Assembly: GCF_900111455.1 (NCBI RefSeq)
Contig: NZ_FOIE01000001.1
Location: 632,376-696,375, forward strand
Length of the DNA: 64,000 nucleotides
Direction: 5' to 3'
Source of the DNA: Geodermatophilus poikilotrophus
GTDB taxonomy: Bacteria > Actinomycetota > Actinomycetes > Mycobacteriales > Geodermatophilaceae
Shown here: in pieces, positions 8,519 to 48,010 of the stretch
Numbering within the stretch: position 1 is the stretch's first letter
Layout of the letters: every line of letters begins with the position of its first letter
Notes under the pieces: generated by a model
Told to the model about the DNA's origin: nothing
The model's database searches: none
What the model saw: only the letters and a program-made list of their open reading frames with translations
Made by a program: the position numbers and the translations under genes

Positions 8519-8551
8519 GTTCCGACCCCGCCGGCGCCCGGAACTCATCGC
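8519..8551 (-). promoter_or_regulatory. ECF-type promoter candidate (copy 1)
   Basis: On the minus strand GCGATGAGT (8551-8543) is followed after 16 bases by GTCGGAAC (8526-8519), 28 bases before the GTG of the DHFR-like gene. The first box and the spacing match copies at 29872 and 31560 exactly; the second box shares only its first three bases. Confidence 0.55.
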
Positions 8552-8656
8552 CGGGGTCCCGTCCGGTCTGCCGCGGTGGTCGCGCGCGCGTGGACGCACC
8601 CGCCCCCGTCGAGGCGTCCACACACGCGCCGGCGGCTGCGGGGACTCGACGCCCGG

Positions 8657-9052
8657 TCAGGGGCGCCAGGCCGGCCGGTAGTCGGGGTGCGCGGCGTGGG
8701 GCAGCGCGAGCAGCGCCAGGGTGAGCGCGGCGAGCTGGTGCTGGTCGGTGGGCGGAAGCGGGAAGTCCAGGCCCGCCGGGCGGGCGCCCAGCAGCCGCAG
8801 GTCGGGCCGGATGTCGCGGCAGGCCAGCACGAGCCGCCGCTTGGCCGCGCAGTCGGCGAGCACCCGCGCCGGGTCGTGGTGCGCGACGTGGTCGGTGGCG
8901 CCGTGCGGCGCGGTCACGCCGGCGTCCCACTCCTCCCGTCCGGTCGCCTGGGCGGCCTCGGCCGCCAGCCGCTGGTCCTCGGCGATGCGGGCCAGCAGGA
9001 AACCGTCGAGATCGGGTTCCAGATCGGGTTCGAGGCCGGGCGAGGCGTCCAT
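8657..9052 (-). CDS. DUF6221 family protein
   Basis: A 131-residue protein of unknown function. It shows the family pattern: FLLARIAEDQRLAAEAAQ near the N-terminus, HHDPARVLADCAAKRRLVLAC in the middle, and the invariant ending HPDYRPAWRP. Such proteins occur in many actinobacterial genomes, frequently as scattered single genes. The ATG at 9052 is preferred over an upstream GTG at 9076 because of a weak AGGA site seven bases upstream and the better fit to relatives. An unusual feature is the short acidic repeat EPDLEPDLD before the family domain. It is divergent from the ABC transporter. Confidence 0.78.
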   Translation of the reverse strand: MDASPGLEPDLEPDLDGFLLARIAEDQRLAAEAAQATGREEWDAGVTAPHGATDHVAHHDPARVLADCAAKRRLVLACRDIRPDLRLLGARPAGLDFPLPPTDQHQLAALTLALLALPHAAHPDYRPAWRP

Positions 9053-9126
9053 GCCGGCATCCTGCGCCGCCGGCACGCGCGCCGGTACGGGCTGCGGCCC
9101 GGCTGCGGTCCTACGGTGGACGGGCC

Positions 9127-9825
9127 ATGCGGAACGGAATGGGATCGCTCGACCTGCTCGTCGTCGAGGAGCTCTCCGTGGGGCACGGCAGCGCCCCCGT
9201 GTGCGCGCCGGTGGACCTCCGCCTCGGACCGGGGCGGGCGCTCGCCGTCGTCGGCCCGAACGGCTCGGGCAAGTCCACGCTGCTGCGCACGCTCGTCGGC
9301 CTGCTGGAGCCGCTCGCCGGCACCGTCGCCTTCGACGGCGCTCCGGTCGACGAGCGGGCCGCCGCCTTCCGCCGCGACGTCGCCGCCGTCCTGGACGACG
9401 ACGCCTTTTTCATCTCCCTGACCGGCCGCGAGCACCTGCTGCTGACCGCGCGCGGGCACGGGGTGGCCGCGGCCGAGGAGGCGGTGGACGACGAGGTCGA
9501 GGCCTTCGGGCTGGGCGACCGGGCCGACGCGCTGCCCTCGGCGCTCTCCTCGGGCCAGCGGCGTCGGCTGGCGCTGGCCGCCGCCTTCGTCCGACCCGCC
9601 CGGCTGCTGGTCCTCGACGAGCCCGAGCGCCGGCTCGACGCCGGCATGCGGGCCCGGCTGGCGGCCCGGCTGGGATCGCTGCGGGACGCCGGCACCGCCG
9701 TGCTGCTCGCCAGCCACGACGCCGACGTGGTCGCCACGGTCGCCGACGAGGTCCTCGTGGTCGACGACGACGCCTGCCGGCTGCTGGACCCGGTCGAGGC
9801 CGCCGGCCGGATCGCGGAGCTCTGA
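9127..9825 (+). CDS. ABC transporter ATP-binding protein
   Basis: A 232-residue nucleotide-binding subunit. Walker A is VGPNGSGKST near residue 42, the signature is the slightly unusual LSSGQRRRLALA, and Walker B is RLLVLDEPERRLD, followed by the switch histidine in LLASHDAD. The D-loop residues after Walker B differ from the usual form. A TACGGT hexamer at 9112-9117 sits nine bases before the ATG and there is no ribosome site, suggesting a leaderless message; Met5 at 9139 is an alternative start. It is followed after four bases by the membrane subunit. Confidence 0.88.
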   Translation: MRNGMGSLDLLVVEELSVGHGSAPVCAPVDLRLGPGRALAVVGPNGSGKSTLLRTLVGLLEPLAGTVAFDGAPVDERAAAFRRDVAAVLDDDAFFISLTGREHLLLTARGHGVAAAEEAVDDEVEAFGLGDRADALPSALSSGQRRRLALAAAFVRPARLLVLDEPERRLDAGMRARLAARLGSLRDAGTAVLLASHDADVVATVADEVLVVDDDACRLLDPVEAAGRIAEL

Positions 9826-9829
9826 GCCG

Positions 9830-11386
9830 GTGACCACCAGCACCACGGTCGCCCCGCTGGACGGCGCGGCGGTGCGCCGGCTGACCCGCCGGGCGACGGC
9901 GGCCCGGGCGCGGACGACGCTGGGCGAGCGGATCTCCGAGGCGTGGGGCGGGCTCGTCTCGGCCGGCATCGGCGTGGCGGTCGCCGGCGGCAGCCTCGCG
10001 TCCCTGCGCGAGAGCATCGCGCTGGCCGGCGCACCGGTCACCGGGACGACGCTGCCCGCCTCCCTCACCTCCGCCGCGCTGGCGCTGCTGGCGCTGGCCG
10101 GCGTGGTCGTCGTCCTGGCCCGGCTGGGGCCGGTGAGCGCCACGCCGGCGGCCGCGGCGTGGTGGCTGCCGCTGCCCGCCGACCGCCGCGGCCTGCTCCG
10201 CGGCGAGCTGGTGCGGCTGACCGCGGCCGGCGGATCCGTCGCGCTGCTGCTGGCGCTGCCGCTGGTGTTCGGCGCCGCCGCCGCGCCGACGGCGGCCTCG
10301 GTGCTCGGCGGCCTGGGCTGGGCCGGCGCGCTCGCCATCGCCGCGGTCGGCGGGACGGCGCTGCTGCAGACCCGGCGCCGCGGCCGAGGTGTGGCCGGGC
10401 TCGCCGGTGCGGTCGCGGGCGCGGCGGCCGTCGTCCCCGCGGTCGCCGGCACCCTCGCCGCCGCGGGCGGGTGGGCTGTCGGCGTCCCGGCCGCCGGGAC
10501 GCTCCCGGGGTGGGTGCTCGCCGTGGCAGCGGTCGCCGCCGGGGCCCTGCTGGTGCAGGCCGACCGGGGGCTGGGCCGGCTGGACGCCGCCCGGCTGCTC
10601 GCGGGCGGGGCGACGGCCCGCTACGCCGGCGGCTCGCTGCTGTCGATGGACACCCGGCAGCTGGGCCGCGCGCTGGCCGGCCGGGACCGGCCGCCCCGCC
10701 GCAGCCGCCGCTTCCGCCGGGTGCGACGCCCCTGGCAGGCGGTGGTGGCCACCGACCTCGCCGTCCTGACGCGCGGCCGGTGGCAGCTCGGCCAGCTCGC
10801 CGTCGCCGCCGCCGTCCCGGTGGTCGTCGCCCGCACCGGGGGACTGGGCGCGCTGCCGCCGGCGGTCTGGGCCGGCTGCCTGCTCGGCTGGGGGCTCGCC
10901 GCGACGGCGGCCGGGCGGGCCGCCCGGGAGGCGCACGGCGCGCCGGAGCTCGACCGGCTGTTCGCGCTGTCGGCCGCCGCCGTGGTGCGCAGCCGCGCCG
11001 TCGTCCCGCTGGGCGGAACGGTGCTGGTCTGCGCCCTCAGCGGGCTGCTGGTCGGCGTCGGCACGGGGGCGGTGGGCACCTGGGCGCTGTTCGGGCTGGC
11101 GGCGGCGCCGGCGTGGGCGGCCGCCTCGCTGCGCGGGGCGCTGCGCCCGGACCCGGACTGGTCCGGGCCGGTCGTCTCCACCCCGATGGGCGTGCTGCCG
11201 GCCGGGGTCGGCGCCACCCTCGTGCAGGGGGTGGACGTCGGCGTCGTCGGCACCCTGCCGCTGCTCGCCGCGCTGGTCAGCGGGGGTCCGACCCCGCTGC
11301 TGGTCGCCGTCCAGGCGGCGTGGGCGCTGCTGCTGGCCGCGGCGGTGCTGGTGCAGCTCGGCCGGCGGCGGTCGCAGGAGGGCTGA
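9830..11386 (+). CDS. Integral membrane ABC permease-like protein (DUF6297-like)
   Basis: A 518-residue membrane protein starting at a GTG four bases after the ATPase stop, so the two are translationally coupled. It has an N-terminal amphipathic Arg-rich segment (RRLTRRATAARART), then about ten to twelve hydrophobic helices with Arg-rich loops, including RDRPPRRSRRFRRVRRPW near the centre. The layout resembles the DUF6297 proteins of Actinobacteria that pair with ABC ATPases; that assignment is from memory of the family and cannot be tested here. The transported substrate is unknown. The stop codon lies in the 5' arm of a strong hairpin. Confidence 0.65.
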   Translation: MTTSTTVAPLDGAAVRRLTRRATAARARTTLGERISEAWGGLVSAGIGVAVAGGSLASLRESIALAGAPVTGTTLPASLTSAALALLALAGVVVVLARLGPVSATPAAAAWWLPLPADRRGLLRGELVRLTAAGGSVALLLALPLVFGAAAAPTAASVLGGLGWAGALAIAAVGGTALLQTRRRGRGVAGLAGAVAGAAAVVPAVAGTLAAAGGWAVGVPAAGTLPGWVLAVAAVAAGALLVQADRGLGRLDAARLLAGGATARYAGGSLLSMDTRQLGRALAGRDRPPRRSRRFRRVRRPWQAVVATDLAVLTRGRWQLGQLAVAAAVPVVVARTGGLGALPPAVWAGCLLGWGLAATAAGRAAREAHGAPELDRLFALSAAAVVRSRAVVPLGGTVLVCALSGLLVGVGTGAVGTWALFGLAAAPAWAAASLRGALRPDPDWSGPVVSTPMGVLPAGVGATLVQGVDVGVVGTLPLLAALVSGGPTPLLVAVQAAWALLLAAAVLVQLGRRRSQEG

Positions 11387-11402
11387 CCCCGGGGGGTCAG
11401 CC
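11381..11402. terminator. Bidirectional hairpin covering both stop codons
   Basis: GGCTGACCCC (11381-11390) and GGGGTCAGCC (11393-11402) form a perfect 10-bp stem with a two-base centre. The stem contains the stop codon of the permease on one side and that of gamma-glutamyltransferase on the other, so it can act in both directions. There is no T-tract. Confidence 0.6.
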
Positions 11403-13208
11403 GTCGCCGGGGTGCACGACCCCGGCGCTGCCGCCGCCGCGCCGCACGGTCTCGGCCGCGGCCAGCAGCCGGCCGTCGGGCAGGAACTCCACGCCGGTGG
11501 CGGCCCCGATCTCGTCGACCGGCGCGAAGGCGTGCCCCCGGGCGGTCAGCTCGGCGCCGTACGCGTCGGTGAAGGCCGGCTCGGCGTCGGCCGTCGCGGC
11601 GTTGCGCTGGCTGGCCCGCGGAGCCGCGATCGCGTCGGCCAGGTCGGTGCCGCGGTCGAGCCGGTCCACCAGCGTCTGCAGCACGGTGGTGATGATCGTG
11701 GCCCCGCCGGGCGAGCCGAGGGCCAGCAGCGGCTCGCCGTCCTGCAGCACGATCGTCGGCGCCATGCTGCTGCGCGGCCGCTTGCCCGGTGCGGGCAGGT
11801 TGGGCTCGGGGCGGGTCGGGTCGGTGGGCGCGAAGGTGAAGTCGGTCAGCTCGTTGTTCAGCAGGAACCCGCGGTCGGGGACGGTGATCCCGCTGCCACC
11901 GGTCTGCTCGATGGTCAGCGTGTAGGCGGCGACGTTGCCCTCGGCGTCGGCCACGGTGAGGTGCGTGGTCGACGGCCCCTCCGCGCCGCCGTCGCCGGGA
12001 GGTGCGGCCGGGGCCGGGCACGGGCCGTACTCGCCGTCGGGGACGCCCGCCGGCACCGGCTTGGGCGCCGCCCGGTCCGGGTCGACCAGGCAGGCCCGCT
12101 CGGCGGCGAAGGCGTCGGACAGCAGCTCGGCCAGCGGCACCTGGGTGTAGGCCGGGTCGCCGACGTAGGCGTTGCGGTCGGCGAAGGCCAGTGCGCTCGC
12201 CTCCAGGTAGGTGTGCAGGACGTCGACCTCCGGCAGCGCGGCCAGGTCGGTGCCCTCCAGGACGTTCAGCGCCTCACCGACGGTCGAGCCACCGCTGGAC
12301 GGCGGCGCCATGCCGTAGACCTCCAGGCCCCGGTACTCGACCCGCGTCGGCTCGCGCAGCGGCGCCTCGTACGCGGCGAGGTCGGACTCCTCCAGCAGAC
12401 CGGCCCGCACCGGCGCGGCGCCGTCGGCCACCGGGGGCTCCTGGGCGGTGCGGACGACCTCCCCGCCCAGCTCCCCGGTGTAGAGGGCCTCGACGCCCTT
12501 CGCCGCCAGCAGCTCGTAGGTGCCCGCCAGGTCGGGGTTGCGGAAGACCGAGCCCACCTCGGGCAGCGCCCCGCCGGGGAGGAACAGCTCGGTGGACGAC
12601 GCGAAGCGGCGGAACCGCTCCTCGTTGTCGGCGGTCTGCTCGCGGAAGGTCTCGTCGACGACGAAGCCCTCCTCGGCGAGCTCGGTGGCGCCCCGCAGCG
12701 CCTCGGCCAGCGAGAGCGTGCCGTACTCGTCGAGCGCCCGCTGCCACGTCAGCGGGGTCCCCGGCGTGCCGACCGACAGCCCGCTCGTCACCGCCTCCTC
12801 GAAGGGCAGCGGCTCGCCGTCCTCCCCGAGGAAGGCGTCGGCCCCCATCGCCTGCGGCGCGGTCTCCCGGCCGTCGATCGTGGTGACCTCCCCGGTCGCG
12901 GCGTCGTGGTACACGAAGAAGCCGCCGCCTCCGACGCCCGCCGAGTAGGGCTCGGTCACGCCGAGCGCGGCGGCCGCGGCGACCGCCGCGTCGGCGGCGT
13001 TGCCGCCCGCGGCCAGGACCTCCAGGCCGACCCGGGTGGCGTCCGGGTCGACCGTGGCGACCGCGCCCCCGGTCCCGACCGCGCGGGGCACCTTCTCCGG
13101 CGGCGGGACGGCGGCGCCCCCGGGCGCGGCGGCCGCGGCCCCGGCCGGGACGAACCCGGCCAGGACGGCGGCGGTCAGGGCGGTCAGGGCGGTGCGTCGA
13201 CGCGGCAC
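11397..13208 (-). CDS. ggt: Gamma-glutamyltransferase, secreted
   Basis: A 603-residue Ntn-hydrolase precursor that transfers or hydrolyses gamma-glutamyl groups from glutathione-like compounds. A signal peptide is visible (RRR, a hydrophobic core, then AAAAA near residue 28). The large-subunit motif GGNAADAAVAAAAALGVTEPYSAGVGG is intact. Autocleavage should occur before Thr414 in PSTTHLTV, which becomes the catalytic nucleophile of the small subunit. Downstream GFLLNNELTDF and SSMAPTIV (substrate-binding serines) and GSPGGATIITTVLQ (oxyanion glycines) are present. The GTG start at 13208 has GAGGAG about six bases upstream. Length is normal for bacterial GGTs. It is divergent from the nitrile-hydratase-like operon. 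Confidence 0.92.
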   Translation of the reverse strand: MPRRRTALTALTAAVLAGFVPAGAAAAAPGGAAVPPPEKVPRAVGTGGAVATVDPDATRVGLEVLAAGGNAADAAVAAAAALGVTEPYSAGVGGGGFFVYHDAATGEVTTIDGRETAPQAMGADAFLGEDGEPLPFEEAVTSGLSVGTPGTPLTWQRALDEYGTLSLAEALRGATELAEEGFVVDETFREQTADNEERFRRFASSTELFLPGGALPEVGSVFRNPDLAGTYELLAAKGVEALYTGELGGEVVRTAQEPPVADGAAPVRAGLLEESDLAAYEAPLREPTRVEYRGLEVYGMAPPSSGGSTVGEALNVLEGTDLAALPEVDVLHTYLEASALAFADRNAYVGDPAYTQVPLAELLSDAFAAERACLVDPDRAAPKPVPAGVPDGEYGPCPAPAAPPGDGGAEGPSTTHLTVADAEGNVAAYTLTIEQTGGSGITVPDRGFLLNNELTDFTFAPTDPTRPEPNLPAPGKRPRSSMAPTIVLQDGEPLLALGSPGGATIITTVLQTLVDRLDRGTDLADAIAAPRASQRNAATADAEPAFTDAYGAELTARGHAFAPVDEIGAATGVEFLPDGRLLAAAETVRRGGGSAGVVHPGDG

Positions 13209-13320
13209 GGGGACTCCTCGGGCGTCGGGCGGTCGCGGTCCAGGAGCTCAGCCTGCTCCTGGCCCGGCCGGCCCGCCCGGCGAGCTGGACCGGACCGGTG
13301 CGACGGGACAGGATCGACGG

Positions 13321-13605
13321 GTGAGCCGCATCAACGACGTCGGCGGCATGATGGGCTTCCCGGCGATCGCCGAGGAGCCCGACGAGCCGGCCTTCCACGC
13401 CGACTGGGAAGCGCACGTCCTGGCCCTCAACGCCGCGCTGATCCGGCGCGGCGTCTACAACCTCGACGAGTTCCGCGACGCCATCGAGCGGATGCCGCCG
13501 GACGCGTACCTGTCGAGCTCGTACTACGAGAAGTGGTTCACGGCCATCACGACCCTGCTGGTCGAGAAGGGCATCGCCACGCCGGAGGAACTGGCCGGTG
13601 GCTGA
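13321..13605 (+). CDS. Nitrile hydratase beta-subunit N-terminal half (ScnB/ToyL-type)
   Basis: A 94-residue protein equivalent to only the N-terminal helical half of a nitrile hydratase beta subunit. It begins SRINDVGGMMGF, matching the HDxGG start of beta subunits, followed by PDEPAFHADWEAHVLALNAAL and a C-terminal helix YYEKWFTAITTLLVEKGIATPEEL. This makes a true split beta more likely than the related accessory protein. GTG at 13321 fits this start; an AGGA lies nine bases upstream. The next gene overlaps its end by eight bases, so stoichiometric synthesis of the three subunits is likely. Gene order matches scnB-scnA-scnC of thiocyanate hydrolase. Confidence 0.8.
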   Translation: MSRINDVGGMMGFPAIAEEPDEPAFHADWEAHVLALNAALIRRGVYNLDEFRDAIERMPPDAYLSSSYYEKWFTAITTLLVEKGIATPEELAGG

Positions 13606-13888
13606 CCGCTTCGCTCCCGGCGACGCGGTGCGGACCAGCACCGCCGACCCGGCGTGGCACACCCGGCTCCCGCGGTACGCCCGCGGCGCCGTCGGCCGGG
13701 TGGTCGAGGTCGCCGGGCACCACCCGCTGGCCGACGACCGGGCCCGCGGCCTGCCGGGCACGACGCGGACCGTCTACCACGTGCGGTTCGCCGCCGCGGA
13801 CCTGTTCGGCGACGGCGACCACGCCGTCACCGTGGAGCTCTGGGAGGACTACCTGGAGCCCGCCGACCCCTCGGGAGGGACACCATGA
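13598..13888 (+). CDS. Nitrile hydratase beta-subunit C-terminal half (SH3-like, ScnA-type)
   Basis: A 96-residue SH3-like barrel equivalent to the C-terminal half of a nitrile hydratase beta subunit. FAPGDAVRTSTADPAWHTRLPRYARGAVGRVVEV is the characteristic opening, and YHVRFAAADLFGDGDHAVTVELWEDYLEP the closing strand pair. In the family this domain packs over the metal site of the alpha subunit. The GTG start overlaps the preceding gene by eight bases with GGAGG inside that gene, and its stop overlaps the next ATG in an ATGA. Confidence 0.83.
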   Translation: MADRFAPGDAVRTSTADPAWHTRLPRYARGAVGRVVEVAGHHPLADDRARGLPGTTRTVYHVRFAAADLFGDGDHAVTVELWEDYLEPADPSGGTP

Positions 13889-14478
13889 GCGGGGACCACC
13901 ACGCCAGCTCGGCGATCTCCGAGCGGGTCCGGCACGTCGAGGCGCTGCTGGAGGCGCGCGGCCTCGTCGACGAGGGCGAGATCGACCGCCGCATCGACGA
14001 GTTCCTCGCCGGCGGCTCGCCGGCCAACGGCGCCCGGATCACCGCCCGCGCCTGGGTCGACCCGGGCTTCCGGGACCGGCTGCTCACCGACGCCAACGCA
14101 GCCATCAGGGAGGTCGGGCTGTCGATGGCCGGCGGCCTGCAGGAACAGCGGCTGAAGGTCGTCGCCAACACCTCGGAGGAGCACAACGTGGTGGTCTGCA
14201 CGCTGTGCTCCTGCTACCCGATCGCGCTGCTCGGCCCGTCCCCGGCCTGGTACAAGAGCGAGGCCTACCGGTCCCGGGTGGTGCGGGACCCGCGCGGGGT
14301 GCTGGCGGAGTTCGGCCTCGACCTGCCGGCGACGACGCGGATCACCGTGTGGGACGCCAGCGCGGAGTCGCGGTACATGGTGGTCCCACGCCGGCCCGAG
14401 GGGACCGAGGGGATGCCGGAGGAGGAGCTGGCCGGCGTGGTCACCCGCAAGGGCCTGATCGGGACCGCCGCCGTCTGA
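13885..14478 (+). CDS. Cobalt-type nitrile hydratase alpha / thiocyanate hydrolase gamma subunit
   Basis: A 197-residue metal-binding catalytic subunit. The claw-setting motif VCTLCSC has Cys105, Cys108 and Cys110; the threonine after the first cysteine marks the cobalt form, and the second and third cysteines would be oxidised to sulfinic and sulfenic acids. YPIALLGPSPAWYKSEAYRSRVV follows as in the family, and VWDASAESRYMVVPRRP forms the C-terminal part. The reaction is either nitrile to amide or thiocyanate to carbonyl sulfide plus ammonia; sequence alone does not decide. ATG overlaps the upstream stop, with GGGAGGG as ribosome site. No cobalt transporter is nearby. Confidence 0.88.
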   Translation: MSGDHHASSAISERVRHVEALLEARGLVDEGEIDRRIDEFLAGGSPANGARITARAWVDPGFRDRLLTDANAAIREVGLSMAGGLQEQRLKVVANTSEEHNVVVCTLCSCYPIALLGPSPAWYKSEAYRSRVVRDPRGVLAEFGLDLPATTRITVWDASAESRYMVVPRRPEGTEGMPEEELAGVVTRKGLIGTAAV

Positions 14479-14487
14479 GGCGCGGGG

Positions 14488-16053
14488 TCAGCCGGAGGAA
14501 CGCGCGCGCAGCTCGTTCTTCTGGACCTTGCCGGTGGAGGTCTTGGGCAGCTCCCCGTAGACGAACCGCTTGGGCACCTTGAACCCCGCCAGCCGTGACC
14601 GCACGAAGGCCGCGAGCTCCTCGTCGGTGACCTCGCTCCCGGGCCGCAGCGTCACGTGGGCGACCGGGACCTCGCCCCACTTCTCGTGGGGCTCGGCGAC
14701 CACGGCGGACTCCAGCACCGCGGGGTGGGCGTCCAGGGCCCGCTCGACCTCCACCGAGGAGATGTTCTCGCCGCCGGAGATGATGATGTCCTTGCTGCGG
14801 TCGCGGATCTCCAGGTAGCCGTCCGGGTGGACGACGGCGAGGTCCCCGGTGCGGAACCAGCCCGGACCGCCGTCCGGCCCCGGCAGCGTCGCCGCCGCCG
14901 TCGCCTCCTCGTCCTGGTAGTAGCCGAGCATGACGTCGTTCCCGCGGGCGACGATCTCCCCGATCGTCTCCCCGTCGCGGGGCACGTCGGTGCCGTCCTC
15001 CCCCACCACCCGCAGCGGCTGGGCGACCACGTTGGCGACACCCTGCCGGGCCTTGAGCTCGGCCTGCCGCTCGGCCGGGAGGTCGTCCCACTCCGGGTGC
15101 CACTGGTTGACCGCCACCGGCCCGTAGGTCTCGGTCAGCCCGTACAGGTGGGTGACGTCCATGTCGAGCGCGGACATCCGGGCCAGCAGGGTCGGGGTGG
15201 GCGGCGCGCCGCCGGTCTGCACCGCGACCCGCGGGGACACCGGGCCGGCCTCCGCCTCCTCGGCGTTGGCGATCATGGTGAGCACGGTCGGCGCCGCGCT
15301 GAAGTGGGTGATGCCCTCGGTGCGCAGCAGCTGCCAGATGCGGGCGGGCTCCACCCGCGGCAGGCACACGTGGGTGGCGCCGCCGGCCGACACCGCCCAG
15401 GGGAAGCACCAGCCGTCGCAGTGGAACATCGGCAGCGTCCACAGGTACTGGCTGGTGGGGCCCAGCCCGGTGTGCAGCGCCATCGCGAGCGCCTGCAGGT
15501 AGGCCCCCCGGTGGCTGTACATGACGCCCTTGGGCCGGCCGGTCGTGCCGGAGGTGTAGTTGAGCGCGAGCAGCCCCCACTCGTCGTCGCAGGGCCGCGC
15601 CAGGGGCTCGGCCGACGCCAGGAGCTGCTCGTACTCGTCGGCCTCGCCGCCGGCCACCACGACCGGGATGCCGACCGCCGCGGCGACCTCGCCGGCCGTC
15701 GCGGCGAACACGGCGTCCGCGACGAGGACCGCGGCGCCGGAGTGCCGCAGGATGTACTCCAGCTCGTTGCCCTTCAGCCGGGTGTTGAGCGGGACCAGGA
15801 CGGCTCCCGCCCACGGGACGCCGTTGTGCACCTCGAGCATCGCCGAGCTGTTCGTGCACAGCGCGGCCACCCGGTCCCCGGGCGAGACGCCGCGGGACGC
15901 GAGGGCCCCGGCGAGCCGGCGGGAGCGGTCGGCGAACTCCCGGTAGGTGAACCGCCGGTCGCCGTCGACCACGGCGGTGCGCTCGGGGAAGACCCGGGCG
16001 GAGCGCTCGAGGAAGGCGGTCGGGGTGAGCTGGGCCGAGCTGAAGGTCGCCAC
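14488..16053 (-). CDS. Acyl-CoA synthetase (AMP-forming), medium/short chain type
   Basis: A 521-residue member of the ANL superfamily that activates a carboxylic acid with ATP and CoA. The P-loop YTSGTTGRPKGVMYSHRG is near residue 170, the LYGLTETYGP motif near residue 305, the hinge region YLEIRDRSKDIIISGGENISSVEVE near 415, and the catalytic C-terminal lysine in PKTSTGKVQKNELR. The stretch MFHCDGWCFPW is typical of the subgroup named fatty-acid or 3-methylmercaptopropionyl-CoA ligases. The GTG at 16053 has AGGAG six bases upstream. It converges with the nitrile-hydratase operon nine bases away. Confidence 0.9.
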   Translation of the reverse strand: MATFSSAQLTPTAFLERSARVFPERTAVVDGDRRFTYREFADRSRRLAGALASRGVSPGDRVAALCTNSSAMLEVHNGVPWAGAVLVPLNTRLKGNELEYILRHSGAAVLVADAVFAATAGEVAAAVGIPVVVAGGEADEYEQLLASAEPLARPCDDEWGLLALNYTSGTTGRPKGVMYSHRGAYLQALAMALHTGLGPTSQYLWTLPMFHCDGWCFPWAVSAGGATHVCLPRVEPARIWQLLRTEGITHFSAAPTVLTMIANAEEAEAGPVSPRVAVQTGGAPPTPTLLARMSALDMDVTHLYGLTETYGPVAVNQWHPEWDDLPAERQAELKARQGVANVVAQPLRVVGEDGTDVPRDGETIGEIVARGNDVMLGYYQDEEATAAATLPGPDGGPGWFRTGDLAVVHPDGYLEIRDRSKDIIISGGENISSVEVERALDAHPAVLESAVVAEPHEKWGEVPVAHVTLRPGSEVTDEELAAFVRSRLAGFKVPKRFVYGELPKTSTGKVQKNELRARSSG

Positions 16054-16160
16054 CTGGTCTCCTCAGGGCGCGGTGCGGACGGGTTCCCGTGGGGGATTGT
16101 CGGCACAGTCCCGCCCCGGCCGCGCCTCGACCACGTCCCCGTCCGGCGCGCTCCCGCCGC

Positions 16161-16250
16161 TCAGGTCCGCAGCAGCGCCCACAGCACGCACAGGGTCAGC
16201 AGCACGACGCTGACCACCCAGGCCGCGGACGCCGGTCCACCGATCCGCAC
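16161..16250 (-). CDS. Putative 29-residue single-pass membrane protein
   Basis: A tiny frame that begins at a GTG two bases after the stop of the flavocytochrome gene and ends at TGA. It encodes a short polar start (RIGGPASA), one hydrophobic helix of about 19 residues (AWVVSVVLLTLCVLW) and a final ALLRT. Position and composition suggest a small membrane subunit or stabiliser translated by termination-reinitiation. The frame continues upstream inside the neighbour only as shadow. It is too short to judge by codon use, so it remains a hypothesis. Confidence 0.4.
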   Translation of the reverse strand: MRIGGPASAAWVVSVVLLTLCVLWALLRT

Positions 16251-16251
16251 C

Positions 16252-19017: not shown

Positions 19018-19045
19018 ACACCGACGGATCGAGAGGGGAACGGGC

Positions 19046-19930: not shown

Positions 19931-19934
19931 CCCC

Positions 19935-21777: not shown

Positions 21778-21923
21778 CCTCAGCGGCCGGACGGTGTGCG
21801 GCCGTGGCGCACTCCGCCGCCCGGATGGGCCACCGAGGCACACTGCTGAGCTCCGGGCGGACGGCTGGGCGCCGGCCGCCCCGGGACCGGCCGGCGTGCA
21901 CACGGCACGCCGGCCGGGGTTCC

Positions 21924-22547: not shown

Positions 22548-22587
22548 GACCGGTCTCCTCCCCGACGGTGCCGGGTGGCACCGCCAC

Positions 22588-22605
22588 GCGAGGGAATGTC
22601 CTCGC
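22588..22605. promoter_or_regulatory. Inverted repeat upstream of the ABM gene
   Basis: GCGAGG (22588-22593) and CCTCGC (22600-22605) flank a six-base AT-richer loop GAATGT, 41 bases before the ABM start codon. The interruption of surrounding GC sequence suggests an operator or a leader hairpin, but no regulator can be named. Confidence 0.25.
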
Positions 22606-22745
22606 TCGCACCGGGGTCGGCGGCGTTCGAGGCGCCCCGTCGGGCCGGGCGGGGCCGGGCGCGGCGCGTGCGGACCGTGCGCACGCCGGCGGGCACGCAT
22701 CCCGCGGATCCCCGTCGACCGGTCGGGTGGAGGAGGGTGTTGCCA

Positions 22746-23806: not shown

Positions 23807-23985
23807 GAGAGCGCACGATCCCGACGCGACCGGCCCGGCACCAGGGGCGTGGGGCCCTGGCCGGACGCACGCGCAGCGATGGCCGCCCGCCCCGAGCGCA
23901 GCGACCCACCGGCGGGACCGCGGCCGCCGGCGGCCGGAGCTGCCGAGGCGGCCGCACGGGCCGGGGGCCTCCCCATCATGGCCCG

Positions 23986-26900
23986 ATGGTCAGCGAGACC
24001 GACGTCGCCGGGCGGAGCGCCGGACAGCGCGCGCACCGGCTGGCCAAGCTGCAGGCCCTGCGCGACCGGGGCACCGCCGCCTACCCCTACCGTTGGCCAC
24101 CGGACGCCACCGCCGCCGGCATCCGTGCGGCCCACACCGACCTGGCCCCCGACGTGCGGACGACGGACCGCGTGCGGGTCGCCGGCCGGGTGGAGCTGAT
24201 CCGCCGGCAGGGCTGGCTGACCTTCGCCACGCTGCGCGACCGCACCGGCGCGGTCCAGCTCTACGTCGACAGCTCCGTCCTCGGCCCCGAGCGGCACGCC
24301 GAGTTCGACGACGTCGACCGCGGCGACTGGATCGGCGCCGAGGGCACCGTGATGACCACGAAGCGCGGCGAGCTGTCGGTGTGCGTCGAGGACTTCGCCG
24401 TCCTCGGCAAGGCACTGCACGCGCCGCCGCCGGAGCACGCCGGCCTGACCGACGTCGAGACCCGCTACCGGCAGCGGTACGTGGACCTGGAGGTCAACGA
24501 GCGCACCCGGCAGGTCTTCCGCATCCGGCACGCCGCCATCCGCGCGATCCGCCGGCACCTGGAGGACCTCGACTTCACCGAGGTCGAGGGCCCGGTGCTG
24601 CAGACCATCCAGGGCGGGGCCAGCGCGCGACCGTTCGTCACCCACTCCAACGCCCTCGACCTGGACCTCTACCTGCGGATCGCCCTCGAGCTGCACCTCA
24701 AGCGGCTGATCGTCGGCGGCCTGGAGCGGGTCTTCGAGATCGGCCGGGTGTTCCGCAACGAGGGCGTGGACACCAGGCACAACCCCGAGTTCACGCTGCT
24801 GGAGGCCTACCAGGCCTTCGGCGACATCACCGACATGATGGAGCTGACCGAGGGGCTCGTCACCGCCGCGGCGCGGGCGGCCCTCGGGGACGACCTCACC
24901 GTCCACCACGCGGGTCACGCGATCGACCTGTCCGCGACGCCGTGGCCGCGGAAGCGGTTCGCCGACATGATCGCCGACGCCACCGGCGCGCAGATGCACC
25001 CGGCGATGCCGATCGCCGACGCCCGCGCCGTGCTCGACCGGCTCGGCATCCCCTACGAGGCCTCCTGGGGCGCCGGGCGGCTGATGAAGGAGGTCTACGA
25101 CGAGAAGGTGCAGCACTCCGTCGTCGGGCCGGTGTTCTGCGTCGACTACCCGCGCGAGGTCTCGCCGCTGGCGCGGGTGCACCGCGACGACCCCGCCTAC
25201 GTCGAGCGCTTCGAGCTGATCGTCGCCGGCTTCGAGCTGTGCAACGCCTACTCCGAGCAGAACGACCCGGTCGAGCAGCTCGCCGCCTTCGAGGCCGAGG
25301 CCCGCGCCAAGTCGCACGGCGACCCGGAGGCCGGCGACGTCGACACCGACTACGTGCGCGCGCTCGAGTGCGGCATGCCCTGTACCGGCGGGCTGGGCAT
25401 CGGCATCGACCGGCTGGTCATGCTGCTGGCCGGCGTCGACTCCATCCGCGAGGTCATCCTCTTCCCGACCCTGCGGCCCGAGGTCCCGGGCACCGGCCCC
25501 GACGGGGCGGTGCGCCCGCTGGTGGCGCCCACCCCGGTGCCCGCCGGTGGCACGGCCGGACCCGACGGCGCGGGGACGGCGGCCGGCTCGGTCGTCGCGC
25601 TGCCGTCGATGGCACCCTCGGCCGGCCCGATCCCGGCACCCCCGCCGACGGCGGGCACCCACCCGCTGGCCGTGCAGGCGCTCGCCGGGCTGACCGCGCT
25701 CTCCGGCGTCCTGCAGCTGCTCACCGCGCTGCCCGTGGTGCACGAGCGGCTCGTCGGCCGGGGTGCGGCGTTCGGCCCGCTGTGGGTGCCGGTGAGCGGG
25801 GCGGTCGCGTCGGTGGTGGTCGGGCTGCTGCTCCTGCTGCTGTCCGACCAGCTGGCCCGGCGCAAGGCGCTGGCCTGGCGGCTGGCCGTGGGGCTGTTCG
25901 CCGTCGGTGCGGTCGCGCACGTGGTCAAGGGCCCGCACCCGGTCGCCGTGGCGCTGTGCCTGGTGCTGCTCGCCGGGCTGGTGCGGTACCGGACGGCGTT
26001 CCGCGCGCCGGCCGACCCGCCGTCCCTGCTGCGCGTGCTCCGGTTCGTCCCGCTGTACCTGGCCGGGGTGCTGCTGTTCGGCCTGGCCGCGCTGTGGGCC
26101 GAGCGGTCGCGGATCGACCCGCCGCTCACCCTCGGCGGAGCGCTGCAGACGGTGCTCGCCGGGCTGGTCGGCCTCGACGGTCCCTACACCTACGGCTCAC
26201 GGTTCTTCGCGGCGTTCTACCCCGCGGCGCTGCTCGCGCTGGGGGTCGCCGGGCTGGTCGTGCTCGCGGTGCTGCTGTTCCGGCCGCTGGCCGCCGCCCG
26301 CCGTCCGCACACCGAGGACGACTGGGCGCACGCGTCCCGGCTGGTGCACACCTACGGCTGGGACACCCTCGCGTACTTCGCCCTGCGCGACGACAAGACG
26401 TTCTTCTTCTCCCGGGACGGGGAGGCCTTCCTCGCCTACACCTACCTCGGGGGCTACGCGCTGGTCTCCGGTGACCCGATCGGGTCCCGGGAGTCCGTTC
26501 CGCGCGTGCTCGACGAGTTCCTCGCGATGTGCGACGAGCGGGGCTGGACGCCGGCCCTGCTGGCCGCGCGCGAGGCGAGCATGCCGCTGTACTCCTCGCG
26601 CGGGTTCCGCGCGTTCTACCTCGGCGACGAGGCGGTGATCGACTGCCGCCGGTTCTCCCTCGACGGCCCGGGGCGCAAGGGGCTGCGCGGCGCCGTCCGG
26701 CGGGTGGGGCGGAGCCACCGCTTCCGGCTCGTCGCCGAGACCGACGCCCCGCCGGCGCTGGTCGACCAGCTCAACGCGATCAGCGCCCGCTGGCGCGGCA
26801 AGCACCCCGAGCGCGGCTTCACGATGTCGCTGTCCCAGGACGTGCGCGGCCCCGGCGCCGACCCCGGGTTCCTGCTGTGCGTCGCGGAGGACGCCGAGGG

Positions 26901-27384
26901 CCGAGCCGGCGGCTTCCTGCGGCTGGTGCCCGCCTACGGGCCGTCGTTCGGCTACACGCTGGACCTGATGCGGCACGACCCGGACGCGCCGAACGGCATG
27001 ACCGAGTTCCTCATCGCCTCCACCGCGACCGCGCTGGGCGCCCGCGGCGTCGCCCGGTTGTCGATGAACTTCGCGATGTGGGGCCGGCTGTTCTCCGACG
27101 ACGTGCCGTTCACCCCCGCCCAGCGCGCGGCCCGGTGGGCGGTCGGCGTGCTGAACCCGTTCTTCCAGATCCAGTCGCTGCACGACTTCAACGCCCGCTT
27201 CGACCCCGAGTGGCTGCCCCGCGTCCTGGCCTACCGGCACCCTGCCGACCTGCCGCGGGTGGGGCTGCGCTACGCCGGCGCCGAGGGCTTCCTGGCGCTG
27301 CCCGGCCTCGGCGAGCTGCTCGTCCCCAGGGCCGTCGGCGGCGTGCCCTCGCCCTCGGCGCCGCAGCAGCGGTCCGCGGCGTGA
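23986..27384 (+). CDS. lysX: LysX-type fusion: lysyl-tRNA synthetase followed by MprF-like lysyltransferase
   Basis: A 1132-residue two-enzyme protein. Residues 1-495 form a class II lysyl-tRNA synthetase: OB-fold RVAGRVELIRRQGWLTFATLRDR, motif 2 RVFEIGRVFRNEG (about 248) and motif 3 GLGIGIDRLVMLL (about 468). A Pro/Ala/Gly linker leads to six or seven membrane helices (about 561-775) and a C-terminal DUF2156 aminoacyltransferase domain that would add lysine from Lys-tRNA to phosphatidylglycerol. Together they make positively charged lipids that resist cationic peptides. In the mycobacterial LysX I know, the membrane/transferase half comes first and the synthetase last, so the order is inverted here. 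The start at 23986 lacks a clear ribosome site. Confidence 0.88.
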   Translation: MVSETDVAGRSAGQRAHRLAKLQALRDRGTAAYPYRWPPDATAAGIRAAHTDLAPDVRTTDRVRVAGRVELIRRQGWLTFATLRDRTGAVQLYVDSSVLGPERHAEFDDVDRGDWIGAEGTVMTTKRGELSVCVEDFAVLGKALHAPPPEHAGLTDVETRYRQRYVDLEVNERTRQVFRIRHAAIRAIRRHLEDLDFTEVEGPVLQTIQGGASARPFVTHSNALDLDLYLRIALELHLKRLIVGGLERVFEIGRVFRNEGVDTRHNPEFTLLEAYQAFGDITDMMELTEGLVTAAARAALGDDLTVHHAGHAIDLSATPWPRKRFADMIADATGAQMHPAMPIADARAVLDRLGIPYEASWGAGRLMKEVYDEKVQHSVVGPVFCVDYPREVSPLARVHRDDPAYVERFELIVAGFELCNAYSEQNDPVEQLAAFEAEARAKSHGDPEAGDVDTDYVRALECGMPCTGGLGIGIDRLVMLLAGVDSIREVILFPTLRPEVPGTGPDGAVRPLVAPTPVPAGGTAGPDGAGTAAGSVVALPSMAPSAGPIPAPPPTAGTHPLAVQALAGLTALSGVLQLLTALPVVHERLVGRGAAFGPLWVPVSGAVASVVVGLLLLLLSDQLARRKALAWRLAVGLFAVGAVAHVVKGPHPVAVALCLVLLAGLVRYRTAFRAPADPPSLLRVLRFVPLYLAGVLLFGLAALWAERSRIDPPLTLGGALQTVLAGLVGLDGPYTYGSRFFAAFYPAALLALGVAGLVVLAVLLFRPLAAARRPHTEDDWAHASRLVHTYGWDTLAYFALRDDKTFFFSRDGEAFLAYTYLGGYALVSGDPIGSRESVPRVLDEFLAMCDERGWTPALLAAREASMPLYSSRGFRAFYLGDEAVIDCRRFSLDGPGRKGLRGAVRRVGRSHRFRLVAETDAPPALVDQLNAISARWRGKHPERGFTMSLSQDVRGPGADPGFLLCVAEDAEGRAGGFLRLVPAYGPSFGYTLDLMRHDPDAPNGMTEFLIASTATALGARGVARLSMNFAMWGRLFSDDVPFTPAQRAARWAVGVLNPFFQIQSLHDFNARFDPEWLPRVLAYRHPADLPRVGLRYAGAEGFLALPGLGELLVPRAVGGVPSPSAPQQRSAA

Positions 27385-27400
27385 GCCGGGTGGACCCCGC

Positions 27401-28810
27401 GTGACCCGGCCGGGCGCTCCGGCTCGCCTGGGCGTCCTGTCGCTGGCCATGGTCAACATCGCCTCGATCGTCAGCGCCCGGAACCTGCCGGTCATGGCGG
27501 AGTACGGCTGGTCGATGCTCGTGCTGTTCGCGCTGGCGATCGGCGTCTTCCTGGTCCCGGTGTCGATGGCCGCCGCCGAGCTGGGCACCGCCTGGCCGCA
27601 GGAGGGCGGCGTCTACGCCTGGGTCAAGCAGGCCTTCGGCGGCCGGACCGGCGCGCTGGCGGTGTGGTGCGACTACGCGGAGAACGTGGCCTGGTTCCCC
27701 ACGGTGCTCTCGTTCATCGCCGCCTCGCTGGCCTACGCGTTCGACCCCGCCCTGGCGGGCGACCGGTTCTTCCTCGTCACGGTCATGCTCGTCGTCTTCT
27801 GGGGCACCACGGCCGCCGCGCTGGGCGGGGTGCGGACGTCGTCGGTGATCGGCGCGGTCGGCACGGTCGCGGGCTCCATCCTGCCCGCCGTCCTCGTCGT
27901 CGCCCTCGGCGCGGCGTTCCTGCTGCGCGGCGACCGCTCGGAGATCCCGTTCTCCGCCGGCGCGCTGGTCCCCGACGTCTCGCTCGGCAACATGGCCTTC
28001 CTCGGCGGGGTCATCCTGCTGTTCACCGGCATGGAGATGGCCGGCTTCCACGCCCGGGAGACCGCCGACCCCGGGCGGACGGTGCCGCGGGCCATCGCGC
28101 TGGCCGTGGCCGTCACCGTCGCCTTCTCCGTGCTCGGCTCGCTGTTCATGGCGTTCGTGGTGCCGCAGCGGGAGATCGACCTGGTGTCCGGGACGATGGA
28201 GCTGTTCTCGAGCGTGCTGGACCGGCTGGACATCGGCTGGCTGCTCGTCCCGCTGGCCGTGGTGGTCGCGCTGGGCGGCGTCGCCCACCTGACCCCGTGG
28301 GTGCTGGGGCCGGCGAAGGGGGTCGGCGCGGTCGCCCGCGAGGGGCTGGCCCCGGCGCGGCTGGGGCGGGTCAACGGCAACGACGTCCCGGTGGCGTTGC
28401 TGGTCGTGCAGGCCGTCGCCGGCTCGGTGTTCGCCCTGCTCTTCGCGCTGGTGCCCAGCGTCAGCACCTCCTACTGGATGCTCTCGGCGGTCACCGCGCA
28501 GGTGATCGTGGTGATGTACGCGCTGGTGTTCGCCTCGGTCATCCGGCTGCGGCACACCCAGCCCGACGTCCCCCGCCCCTACCGCATCCCCGGCGGGCTG
28601 CCCGGCGTGTGGCTCGTCGGCGGGGTCGGCCTGGCCGGCTGCGTCGTCTCCTTCCTGCTCGGTTTCGTCCCGCCGGCCCAGCTGCAGACCGGCAACCCGG
28701 TCGTCTACGTGCTCCTGCTGGCGCTGGCCACGGTGGTGCTGTCGCTGCCGCCGTTCGTCTTCGCCCTGCTGGAGCGCCGGCGCCGCGCCACGCCGGCCAC
28801 GACGGGGTGA
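27401..28810 (+). CDS. APC-family amino acid permease (glutamate:GABA antiporter-like)
   Basis: A 469-residue transporter with 12 predicted membrane helices. TM1 has the broken-helix LSLAMVNIASIVSARNLP, TM6 region reads ILLFTGMEMAGFHARETADPGRTVPRAI, and PRPYRIPGGLPG appears before the last helices; all fit the glutamate:GABA antiporter branch (GadC-like). It should exchange amino acids or their decarboxylation products. GTG start 16 bases after the lysX stop suggests cotranscription. No decarboxylase gene is beside it. Confidence 0.85.
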   Translation: MTRPGAPARLGVLSLAMVNIASIVSARNLPVMAEYGWSMLVLFALAIGVFLVPVSMAAAELGTAWPQEGGVYAWVKQAFGGRTGALAVWCDYAENVAWFPTVLSFIAASLAYAFDPALAGDRFFLVTVMLVVFWGTTAAALGGVRTSSVIGAVGTVAGSILPAVLVVALGAAFLLRGDRSEIPFSAGALVPDVSLGNMAFLGGVILLFTGMEMAGFHARETADPGRTVPRAIALAVAVTVAFSVLGSLFMAFVVPQREIDLVSGTMELFSSVLDRLDIGWLLVPLAVVVALGGVAHLTPWVLGPAKGVGAVAREGLAPARLGRVNGNDVPVALLVVQAVAGSVFALLFALVPSVSTSYWMLSAVTAQVIVVMYALVFASVIRLRHTQPDVPRPYRIPGGLPGVWLVGGVGLAGCVVSFLLGFVPPAQLQTGNPVVYVLLLALATVVLSLPPFVFALLERRRRATPATTG

Positions 28811-28873
28811 GGGCGCTGGACCCGGGTGGCAGGGTGCTCCCGTGCTGCCCTCGCCCATCGCGTCCCTGCTGCC

Positions 28874-29770
28874 GTGAGGTTCCTCGACGCGGACGCCGTC
28901 GCCGCACTCGGACCCGCGGCGGCGGTCCGGGCCATCACCGACGCCCTGCGCGGTGGGGTCGACCCGGCCGCCGACCCGCCCCGCATCCCGGTCGGCCTGA
29001 CGCGGGGCCAGTTCCTGCTGATGCCGTCGGAGGCGTCCGCCGCGGCCGGGGTGAAGGTCGTGACCGTCGCCCCGGACAACCCGGCCTCCGGGCTGCCCCG
29101 CATCCAGGCCGCGTACCTGCTGTTCGACCGGGAGACCCTCGCGCTGCGCGCGGTGCTCGACGGGACAGCGCTGACCACGCTGCGCACCCCGGCGGTCTCG
29201 GTCGCCGCCGTCCTCGAGCGGCTGCCGGAGCGTCCGCTGCGGGTCGCGGTGGTCGGTGCCGGTCCGCAGGCCACCGGCCACGTCGCCACGCTGGCCGCCG
29301 TCCGCCCGCTCGCGGACGTCACGCACCTGGTGCGCGACCCGTCTCGGACCCCGCTCGACGCGGTCGGGCTCGGATCGCCCGGGGCCGACGAGGCGCTGCG
29401 GGCGGCCGACGTCGTCGTCTGCGCGACCTCGGCACGGTCGCCGGTGTTCGACTCCGCTCTGCTGCGCGACGACGCCGTGGTCGTCGCCGTCGGCTCGCAC
29501 GAGCCCGACGCCCGGGAACTCGACGCAGCGCTGCTCGGGCGCGCCACCGTGGTCGTCGAGGACGTCGCCACCGCCCTGCGGGAGGCCGGCGACGTGGTGC
29601 TGGCGATCGCCGAGGGCACGCTGGACGCCGACGACCTGGTGCCGCTGCGCGACGTCCTGACCGGTGCGGTCGCCGTGCCCGCCGACCGTCCGCTGGTGTT
29701 CAAGAGCGTCGGGATGTCGTGGCAGGACCTCGTCGTCGCCGCGGCGGTCGTGGCACGCAGCGGAGGCTGA
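28874..29770 (+). CDS. Ornithine cyclodeaminase / mu-crystallin family protein
   Basis: A 298-residue NAD(P)H-binding enzyme. Key parts are VRFLDADAVAAL at the N-terminus, QFLLMPSEASAAAGVKVVTV with the substrate lysine, GTALTTLRTPAVSVAA, and the Rossmann VVGAGPQATGHVATLA. The family includes ornithine cyclodeaminases, ketimine reductases and amino-acid dehydrogenases; substrate cannot be assigned. GTG at 28874 gives the standard N-terminus; an earlier start at 28826 would add 16 residues without a better ribosome site. Same strand as the permease, 63 bases downstream, so an amino-acid or ketimine substrate is plausible. Confidence 0.83.
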   Translation: MRFLDADAVAALGPAAAVRAITDALRGGVDPAADPPRIPVGLTRGQFLLMPSEASAAAGVKVVTVAPDNPASGLPRIQAAYLLFDRETLALRAVLDGTALTTLRTPAVSVAAVLERLPERPLRVAVVGAGPQATGHVATLAAVRPLADVTHLVRDPSRTPLDAVGLGSPGADEALRAADVVVCATSARSPVFDSALLRDDAVVVAVGSHEPDARELDAALLGRATVVVEDVATALREAGDVVLAIAEGTLDADDLVPLRDVLTGAVAVPADRPLVFKSVGMSWQDLVVAAAVVARSGG

Positions 29771-29871
29771 CCGGGTCCTGCGGCGCACGAGAGTGCCCGG
29801 CGGCGCCGCGGTCCCCGGCTCACGTGACCACGGTGGCGATCGGCGGCGACTGCCGGGCGGCCGCCCCTGCC

Positions 29872-29904
29872 GCGATGAGTTCCGGCCGGGTCGCGGGTCT
29901 GTCC
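29872..29904 (+). promoter_or_regulatory. ECF-type promoter candidate (copy 2)
   Basis: GCGATGAGT (29872-29880), 16 bases, then GTCTGTCC (29897-29904), 60 bases before the DUF899 start codon. Boxes and spacing match copy 3 at 31560-31592 in 15 of 17 box positions or better, while the spacers differ. Confidence 0.65.
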
Positions 29905-29964
29905 TGGTGACCGTCGCAGGACGTCGTCCGACGCTGCCCGGCACGAGACGCCACGGAGGAGACC

Positions 29965-30747
29965 ATGACGACCACGTCGAGGAACCCGGCCACCGCGCTG
30001 CCCGGCCGCCCGCCCATCGTCGACCTCGCCACCTGGCAGGCCGCCCGGGACGAGCTCCTGGTCCGCGAGAAGGCCCACACCCGCGCGGGCGACGCCCTCG
30101 CCGCGGCCCGCCGCCGGCTGCCGATGGTGGAGCTCGACGGGACGGTCGAGGTCGTCGGACCCGACGGCCCGGTCCCATTCCTGGACCTGTTCCAGGGTCG
30201 CGACGAGCTCCTGGTCTACAAGCACATGTGGTACGACGGCGCGCCGCACCAGGGGCAGTGCGAGGGCTGCACCATGACGACCTGGCAGCTGAGGGACGCC
30301 GTCTACCTCAACGCCCGCGGCGTCTCGTTCGCCGTCCTGACCACGGGCCGGTGGGACGAGGTGGCGGCCTACGTCGAGTTCATGGGCTACACGCAGCCCT
30401 GGTACTCGGTGCGCGGTGTGGCGGAGCCGGTCGGCGGGGAGATGGGCCACCTCACCTGCTTCCTGCGCGACGGCGACCGCGTGTTCCTCACCTACTCCAC
30501 GACGGGCCGTGGCAACGAGCCGGTCGCCGCGTCCTTCGGCCTGCTCGACAGGACGCCCTACGGCCGCGGCGAGGCGTGGGAGGACACCCCCGAGGGCTGG
30601 CCCGAGGGGCGCCACGCGTGCTGGTACTGGCGCGCGGACGCGGACGGGAACGCCACCTGGGGCCCGACCAGCCGCCCCGTGCCGCAGTGGACCCGCCCCG
30701 GTGCGACCCCAGTGGAGACCCTCGGCCGGCACGGCGACCACTCCTGA
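29965..30747 (+). CDS. DUF899 thioredoxin-like protein
   Basis: A 260-residue cytosolic protein. After a helical start (IVDLATWQAARDELLVREKAHTRAGDALAAARRRLPM) comes the DUF899 core: LDLFQGRDELLVYKHMWYD, the CEGCTM motif where thioredoxin-like relatives have CxxC, ARGVSFAVLTTGRWDEV and WYWRAD. Members are often induced by stress through ECF sigma factors, but their reaction is unknown. ATG at 29965 has GGAGGA five bases upstream. A bipartite promoter shared with two DHFR-like genes lies in front. Confidence 0.85.
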   Translation: MTTTSRNPATALPGRPPIVDLATWQAARDELLVREKAHTRAGDALAAARRRLPMVELDGTVEVVGPDGPVPFLDLFQGRDELLVYKHMWYDGAPHQGQCEGCTMTTWQLRDAVYLNARGVSFAVLTTGRWDEVAAYVEFMGYTQPWYSVRGVAEPVGGEMGHLTCFLRDGDRVFLTYSTTGRGNEPVAASFGLLDRTPYGRGEAWEDTPEGWPEGRHACWYWRADADGNATWGPTSRPVPQWTRPGATPVETLGRHGDHS

Positions 30748-30900
30748 CGCGCCGTCGCCGACGGCGTCGGGCACAGGTGTCGAGCCGGTACCGAGGGCTC
30801 CACCCGCCTGACGCCGACCGTCGTCCTCCGGTCCCTCGTGACCCCCGTCGACCGCCGATGGCGTCGTACCCGGCGGATCAGGTCTGGGCGGACCTGCCGG

Positions 30901-31515
30901 TCATCCGAGCCGGCTCACGCTGGCGCCGGTCGACGGCTCTGGGAGGGGGTCGGCAGCAGGCACCGCGTAGCGCACCCGGAGCGAGCCGCCGGGCCAGGTC
31001 TCGCTGTCCCGCAGGGTCAGACACACGGTGGGCCCGGCCGGATCGAGCAGCGGCGTGCCGGTGCCGAGCAGCACCGGTGCGACGAACAGCTCGAGGTCGT
31101 CCACCAGCTCGGCGCGCAGCAGAGCACGCATCACGGTGGTGCTGCCCCACACGATCGTGGTCCCGGTCGTGCCGGCCGTGCGGCGTGACCGGATGTGCTC
31201 GACGGCGTCGGGGACGATCCGCGCCGGTGGGTGTCCACCCCACGGCGCGGCGCCGAGCGTGGTGGACGCGACGGTCTTGGGCAGGGCGTTGACGAGTGGG
31301 GCCAGCGCTTCGCCCTCGGCCGTGGGCCAGAACTGGACGAACTCCTCGTAGGTGCGCCTGCCCAGCAGCACCTCGTCGACGGAGTCGAGCAGCGCCGTGT
31401 TGTGCTGGTCCGAGGCGGAGAAGTCGGGGACGGCGTCGAGGACGTCGGTCTCCCCGTTCGGGCCGGCGACCATGCCGTCGACGGAGACCCACTGCTGGAC
31501 CAGGACCCGGCGCAT
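30901..31515 (-). CDS. Dihydrofolate-reductase-like (RibD C-terminal family) protein
   Basis: A 204-residue protein of the same superfamily as the one at 7931 but of a different subgroup. It has QQWVSVDGMVAGPNGETDVLDAVPDFS, LLGRRTYEEFVQFWP, and the cofactor segment TTIVWGSTTVMRALLRAELVDDLELFVAPVLLG. A nucleotide-reducing or xenobiotic-reducing role is possible but unproven. ATG at 31515 has GAGG close upstream. Preceded by the third copy of the GCGATGAGT promoter motif, and the adjacent DUF899 gene shares that motif. Confidence 0.86.
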   Translation of the reverse strand: MRRVLVQQWVSVDGMVAGPNGETDVLDAVPDFSASDQHNTALLDSVDEVLLGRRTYEEFVQFWPTAEGEALAPLVNALPKTVASTTLGAAPWGGHPPARIVPDAVEHIRSRRTAGTTGTTIVWGSTTVMRALLRAELVDDLELFVAPVLLGTGTPLLDPAGPTVCLTLRDSETWPGGSLRVRYAVPAADPLPEPSTGASVSRLG

Positions 31516-31559
31516 GCGACCTCGCTCCGCGCGTTCCGCGGCCGGTCCGCGGACTCACT

Positions 31560-31592
31560 GCACAGACCGCCCGAGGCCCGCGCACTCATCGC
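31560..31592 (-). promoter_or_regulatory. ECF-type promoter candidate (copy 3)
   Basis: On the minus strand GCGATGAGT (31592-31584) is followed after 16 bases by GTCTGTGC (31567-31560), 44 bases before the DHFR-like start codon. Confidence 0.65.
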
Positions 31593-47910: not shown

Positions 47911-48010
47911 CGCGACTCCCTCGAGCGGTGTGTGCGTCGCAGCGTCCTCTGCACCTCCGACCGAATGTGCGCGTCGGAGTCATCGGACCGCCACCGGATT
48001 TCCCGCCGCG

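Follow-up and report, generated by a model that had tools for sequence, protein, structure and literature searches.

In Mycobacterium tuberculosis, the extracytoplasmic function (ECF) sigma factor SigG is described as reading the promoter CGATGA(N18)GTCNNTA (Gaudion et al., 2013, PMC3776920), a motif obtained by aligning the start of Rv0887c, mapped by 5'-RACE (rapid amplification of cDNA ends), with Rv0911, and so based on two promoters and one mapped start; both genes are glyoxalase-like and are given there as the strongest SigG-induced genes. The sigG gene itself is driven by the RecA-independent damage promoter (RecA-NDp, or P1; PMC3776920), with the consensus tTGTCRgtg-N8-TannnT (PMC5656591), and SigG appears in the list of the PafBC regulon in a 2021 review, where the SigG regulon is called 'less well understood' (PMC8223512). 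A further member of the same sigma factor group, ECF56, is SigG1 of Streptomyces tsukubaensis, reported with the motif CCG, 17 bp, CCCTCC, with targets in metal balance and development and with the anti-sigma factor RsfG; a second ECF56 gene of that species, sigG2, is 47% identical to M. tuberculosis SigG in a paper that centres on sigG1 (PMC7730460). Here, we analyze a 64,000-nucleotide stretch of the Geodermatophilus poikilotrophus genome (the window), in which an earlier note, made from the sequence alone, had proposed that three scattered genes share an ECF-type promoter. The promoter class and the sigma factor group are already known; we consider it very likely that the three sites act as promoters for an ECF56 sigma factor and belong to one scattered regulon of about 11–17 genes, most of which encode small detoxification- or repair-type enzymes.

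The exact pattern GCGATGAGT-N16-GTC occurs three times in the window, with a gap of exactly 16 bases between the identical 9-base boxes and GTC as the note had described, and none of 100 dinucleotide shuffles yields any match. Promoter 1 (minus strand, 8551–8524; first box 8551–8543, GTC 8526–8524) ends 32 nt before the GTG start codon of a gene at 8491–7931 on the same strand, whose translation matches Pfam RibD_C (PF01872, E 2.6e-20). Promoter 2 (plus strand, 29872–29899; first box 29872–29880, GTC 29897–29899) stands 65 nt before the ATG of a plus-strand DUF899 gene at 29965–30747 (PF05988, E 6.8e-64), and promoter 3 (minus strand, 31592–31565; first box 31592–31584, GTC 31567–31565) stands 49 nt before the ATG of a second minus-strand RibD_C gene at 31515–30901 (PF01872, E 2.4e-12). 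The profile matches agree with the two DHFR-like genes and one DUF899 gene named in the note. The second box, again in line with the note, is GTCTGTSC at two of the sites and is GTCGGAAC at the remaining one. Within the window, GATGAGT is confined to the three promoters, although its count alone is unremarkable, since 43 of 100 shuffles reach three copies (mean 2.4); the unusual feature is the pair of boxes at a fixed spacing. CGATGA, N18 and GTC are each present at 3/3 sites and identical to those of the M. tuberculosis SigG promoter, and this shorter core occurs four times in the window, a number that 0/100 shuffles reach (mean 0.52). The fourth occurrence, CGATGACT-N16-GTC at 47985–47959 on the minus strand, is a weaker candidate of uncertain membership; 48 nt downstream of it begins a gene (47910–46927) for a predicted ABC-transporter ATPase with a weak DrrA-type C-terminal match.

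Across the whole 4.83-Mb genome, GCGATGAGT-N16-GTC has only the three window copies, while dropping the leading G gives 12 sites (CGATGAGT-N16-GTC) and the bare CGATGA-N18-GTC gives 42. The note had suggested a genome-wide search, in which occurrence at random positions would speak against a promoter; for the CGATGAGT form, the placement is not random, in that a coding-like open reading frame (ORF) begins 8–65 nt downstream of 11 of the 12 sites, the exception being C17:43594. The site C12:351691, counted among the 11, is at the same time inside a coding-like open frame on the opposite strand. By Pfam, the genes behind these 11 sites comprise three RibD_C, two glyoxalase, one DUF899, one DUF1905, one alpha/beta hydrolase, one beta-lactamase fold, one MDMPI_N and one without a family. 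Six of the other 30 bare matches precede genes of similar kinds (RibD_C three times, glyoxalase, 3-dmu-9_3-mt and alpha/beta hydrolase), bringing the candidate targets from about 11 up to 17. The earlier three-gene set is right for the full 9-base form and understates the scale of the putative regulon. The remaining 24 sites include some inside genes and some upstream of genes of other kinds (polysaccharide deacetylase, ABC ATPase, DUF2469), so the bare core is not specific. At five of the 12 CGATGAGT sites, the start codon lies 8–9 nt past GTC, which suggests that these five genes are probably transcribed as leaderless messages. Downstream of another bare-core site (G000:C7:705436-705462, L072) is an ATG with a 53-codon ORF, which on inspection by eye resembles the remnant of a SnoaL-like gene.

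The spacing between the boxes peaks at one value. When CGATGAGT-N(12-20)-GGTC was searched in 21 genomes, 10 of 15 matches in the G. poikilotrophus genome had the motif spacing (p about 5e-7), and in this genome together with seven others of the genus 102 of 134 did (p about 9e-69). A search with CGATGA-N(16-20)-GTC gave 710 matches and was uninformative. For counts of the motif elsewhere, we used a shifted spacing as the control in place of the reversed pattern, which gives far lower counts at any spacing and so appears to be a poor null.

The motif is also conserved upstream of orthologous genes. A DUF899 orthologue is present in 15 of 26 genomes of the genus, and 14 of the 15 (G. poikilotrophus included) carry CGATGA-N18-GTC upstream, 13 of them as CGATGAGT; the fifteenth has CGACGAGT, and a 52%-identical DUF899 paralogue has no motif upstream. 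Across an alignment of 14 rows, GCGATGAG and GTC are invariant, with only a moderate contrast between boxes and spacer because much of the spacer is conserved as well. Upstream of one of these orthologues (G002, L307), a GGGGCGATGAGTCCCGC-type -35 stretch is repeated in tandem, in about three copies, before the promoter. Homologues of the first RibD_C gene were found in seven of the 26 genomes (E 1e-60), with the motif upstream of five, G. poikilotrophus included (four as CGATGAGT, one as CGATGACT), and with CGACGAGT at one of the two misses; the second RibD_C gene occurs in two of the 26, again counting G. poikilotrophus, and both have the motif.

The G. poikilotrophus genome has 28 sigma-70 region-2 hits, among which we chose by eye two SnoaL-bearing sigma factors for profile scans. 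Both are of ECF56 type (SigG group), scoring above the NF006089 and TIGR02960 cut-offs and carrying SnoaL_2: sigma A (G000:C12:284579-285553, L102:2580-3554), which is 91% identical to its Geodermatophilus pulveris counterpart, and sigma B (G000:C7:198738-199754), which is 52% identical to sigma A. Over 198 genomes of the phylum, the motif tracks ECF56 (matches to sigma A or B at E 1e-40) and a control pattern one base longer does not: in counts that do not model kinship, the 47 ECF56-bearing genomes have 152 motif sites versus 61 control sites and the 151 genomes without ECF56 have 33 versus 111. At least two motif sites are present in 27/47 genomes with ECF56 versus 5/151 without; for at least two control sites the figures are 15/47 and 25/151.

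The motif also adjoins the sigma factor genes themselves. Among 80 loci from named genomes (L221–L300), which are the best 80 of 585 relatives and therefore lean towards sigma A, 46 have CGATGAGT-N16-GTC within the 2.5-kb flanks; these flanks contain 53 sites at the motif spacing versus four at eight other spacings combined. The motif stands immediately upstream of the sigma gene in L140, L207 and L285, and at many ECF56 loci it precedes a small convergent ORF, often with the start codon 8–9 nt past GTC. These small ORFs fall into one cluster with 38 members, 36 of which come from the named loci; profile scans of two of them gave STAS_2 matches. ORFs of this type lie, for example, downstream of minus-strand sites at 3768 in L262 and at 3829 in L293. 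Further neighbours resemble, in sequence, proteins of the glyoxalase, alpha/beta hydrolase, MFS and RibD_C families, and one was assigned to AHSA1 by scan.

A second promoter class would connect many of the same sigma genes with DNA damage. With a search span that started 200 nt upstream of the match and ended 30 nt inside it, and with at most two mismatches allowed, we found a RecA-NDp/PafBC-type promoter at 45 of these best 80 ECF56 genes, compared with 0/80 for the reverse complement, 0/80 inside the gene and 1/80 in shuffled sequence. In Streptomyces ECF56 genes, the site often reads TTGTCAGTG-N8-TAGCTT. Both this site and the CGATGAGT motif are present at 31 of the 80 loci, and neither at 20.

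Sigma A is best described as a member of the SigG group and not as a strict SigG orthologue. In a tree of 70 proteins whose deep forks are weakly supported, sigma A groups with Geodermatophilus and Blastococcus sequences, sigma B falls in a second clade, and a third clade holds four proteins of one family of the same order (f8) together with those of G190 and G104. At one f8 locus (L169), the sigma gene is followed by a pirin gene and a gene for a membrane-type protein, with a gene for a lipase-type hydrolase diverging, which is the layout described for sigG of M. tuberculosis; f8 is therefore probably the mycobacterial family, and we assigned the SigG clade through this synteny. Since sigma A lies outside this clade, strict one-to-one orthology is not supported, within the limits of those weak deep forks. 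Genomes with a single ECF56 hit that fall in the third clade have three (G019), five (G093), eight (G104) and six (G190) motif sites. Sites with at most two RecA-NDp mismatches occur at three of seven genes in the third clade and at none of six in the sigma B clade, sigma B included. As in M. tuberculosis, the G. poikilotrophus genome combines glyoxalase-type candidate targets with an ECF sigma factor of the SigG group; its RibD_C, DUF899 and DUF1905 candidates do not figure in the SigG-dependent set given in PMC3776920.

Taken as ECF56 promoters, the three window sites would be read by RNA polymerase carrying an ECF56 sigma factor, of which sigma A is the likeliest. Its region 4 would read CGATGAGT and its region 2 the (G/C)GTC box. 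DNA or metabolite damage would raise the level of the sigma factor, which would in turn switch on the clean-up enzymes; we infer this chain from the RecA-NDp site before the sigma gene in M. tuberculosis and from matching sequences at that place in many relatives. The detoxification role of the candidate targets is likewise putative.

Several observations weigh against this explanation. The resemblance to SigG promoters mentioned in the note covers the two boxes and their spacing and fails at the closing TA, which is present at 0/3 window sites; T and A are also minority bases among the 53 motif sites flanking ECF56 genes, and we do not treat NNTA as defining for that reason. The co-occurrence statistics ignore phylogeny and genome size, and the GGTC form is missing from 10 of the 39 genomes in which sigma A has a good match, several of these carrying CGATGA-N18-GTC in another form, for example ending in CGTC, near the sigma gene. 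A clear spacing spike is absent from three order-level genomes with complete match lists that lay outside the eight-genome test (G014, 2/10; G017, 0/1; G020, 0/1) and from one same-genus genome counted within it (G008, 2/8). The 6.5-kb stretch around sigma A has no CGATGA-N18-GTC at all, and autoregulation of sigma A through the motif was accordingly dropped. About 50 nt before its start is a RecA-NDp-like site with three mismatches and a -10 box that lacks the A, and four relatives of the family have similar sites with two to four mismatches; given this degenerate copy, a damage link in G. poikilotrophus itself is only suggested. Finally, S. tsukubaensis SigG1 shares the ECF56 group and the SnoaL_2 extension (its partner RsfG having no Pfam domain), and the motif reported for it differs from the one described here (PMC7730460), so the ECF56 group probably spans more than one promoter specificity.

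Among other explanations, the one that survives best is that the promoters are real and are read by sigma B, or by both paralogues. Sigma B is also of ECF56 type, and at the end of its gene a near-motif, CGATGAGT-N16-GTT, overlies the stop codon (L103:3753-3781) ahead of a SnoaL_3 gene at 3830. Yet the eight ECF56 genomes whose sigma A match is below 250 bits have four motif sites versus six control sites, and CGATGA-N18-GTC lies within 1.5 kb at only one (L166) of six sigma B-clade loci (five relatives and G. poikilotrophus), so we regard this assignment as unlikely. A bipartite site for an ordinary transcription factor near some other promoter would fit the sequence-based nature of the support and the well-conserved DUF899 spacer, but the boxes are asymmetric and held at one fixed spacing, several start codons follow GTC by 8–9 nt, and the motif is linked to ECF56 genes, all of which makes a sigma promoter much the better description and this one very improbable.

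We give equally little weight to the idea that another of the sigma factors behind the 28 region-2 hits reads the motif and that ECF56 co-occurs merely by lineage. Statistics that disregard phylogeny leave room for such a confusion, and members of the ECF41 and ECF42 groups, which have C-terminal extensions as ECF56 sigma factors do, seem to be present in the genome (the ECF41 linker motif marks L015 and L024; L017, L025 and L026 were recognized by eye). The ECF41 and ECF42 promoter motifs start with TGTC, and we found nothing tying either group to CGATGA-N18-GTC; against any such reader, the motif physically adjoins ECF56 genes and the published SigG promoter matches its core. Chance recurrence of a GC-rich word, to which the many intragenic or misplaced sites among the 42 bare matches might point, is rejected with near certainty by the spacing tests, the shuffles and the conservation in orthologues.

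The ECF-type promoter common to scattered genes that the note had proposed is thus supported by its fixed spacing, its placement, its conservation, and its co-occurrence with and adjacency to ECF56 genes. A broader extension of the ECF56 reading, which we offer tentatively as rather less probable than its failure, is a two-step response across Actinobacteria, and also in metagenome-assembled genomes filed under Chloroflexota and Acidobacteriota, in which PafBC would activate an ECF56 sigma factor and this in turn a CGATGAGT-N16-GTC detoxification regulon (in extended form, CGATGAGTT...GGTCTACC). In many lineages, a first target would be the convergent STAS-domain gene, acting as a feedback partner, a role known from SigB-type partner switching.

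The open-licence literature searched yielded no description of the wide regulon, of DUF899 and RibD_C genes as its targets or of the STAS neighbour; no paper found in open-licence PMC connects DUF899 with an ECF sigma factor, and, among the titles listed, none looked to treat CGATGAGT as a sigma factor promoter. Where the published SigG motif had two promoters, the same core promoter appears, by sequence, in many actinobacterial lineages. The orphan families RibD_C, DUF899 and DUF1905 would be tied to one probably damage-linked regulon, and the spacing-exact motif offers a testable handle on a poorly understood stress regulon in harmless bacteria such as Geodermatophilus or Streptomyces.

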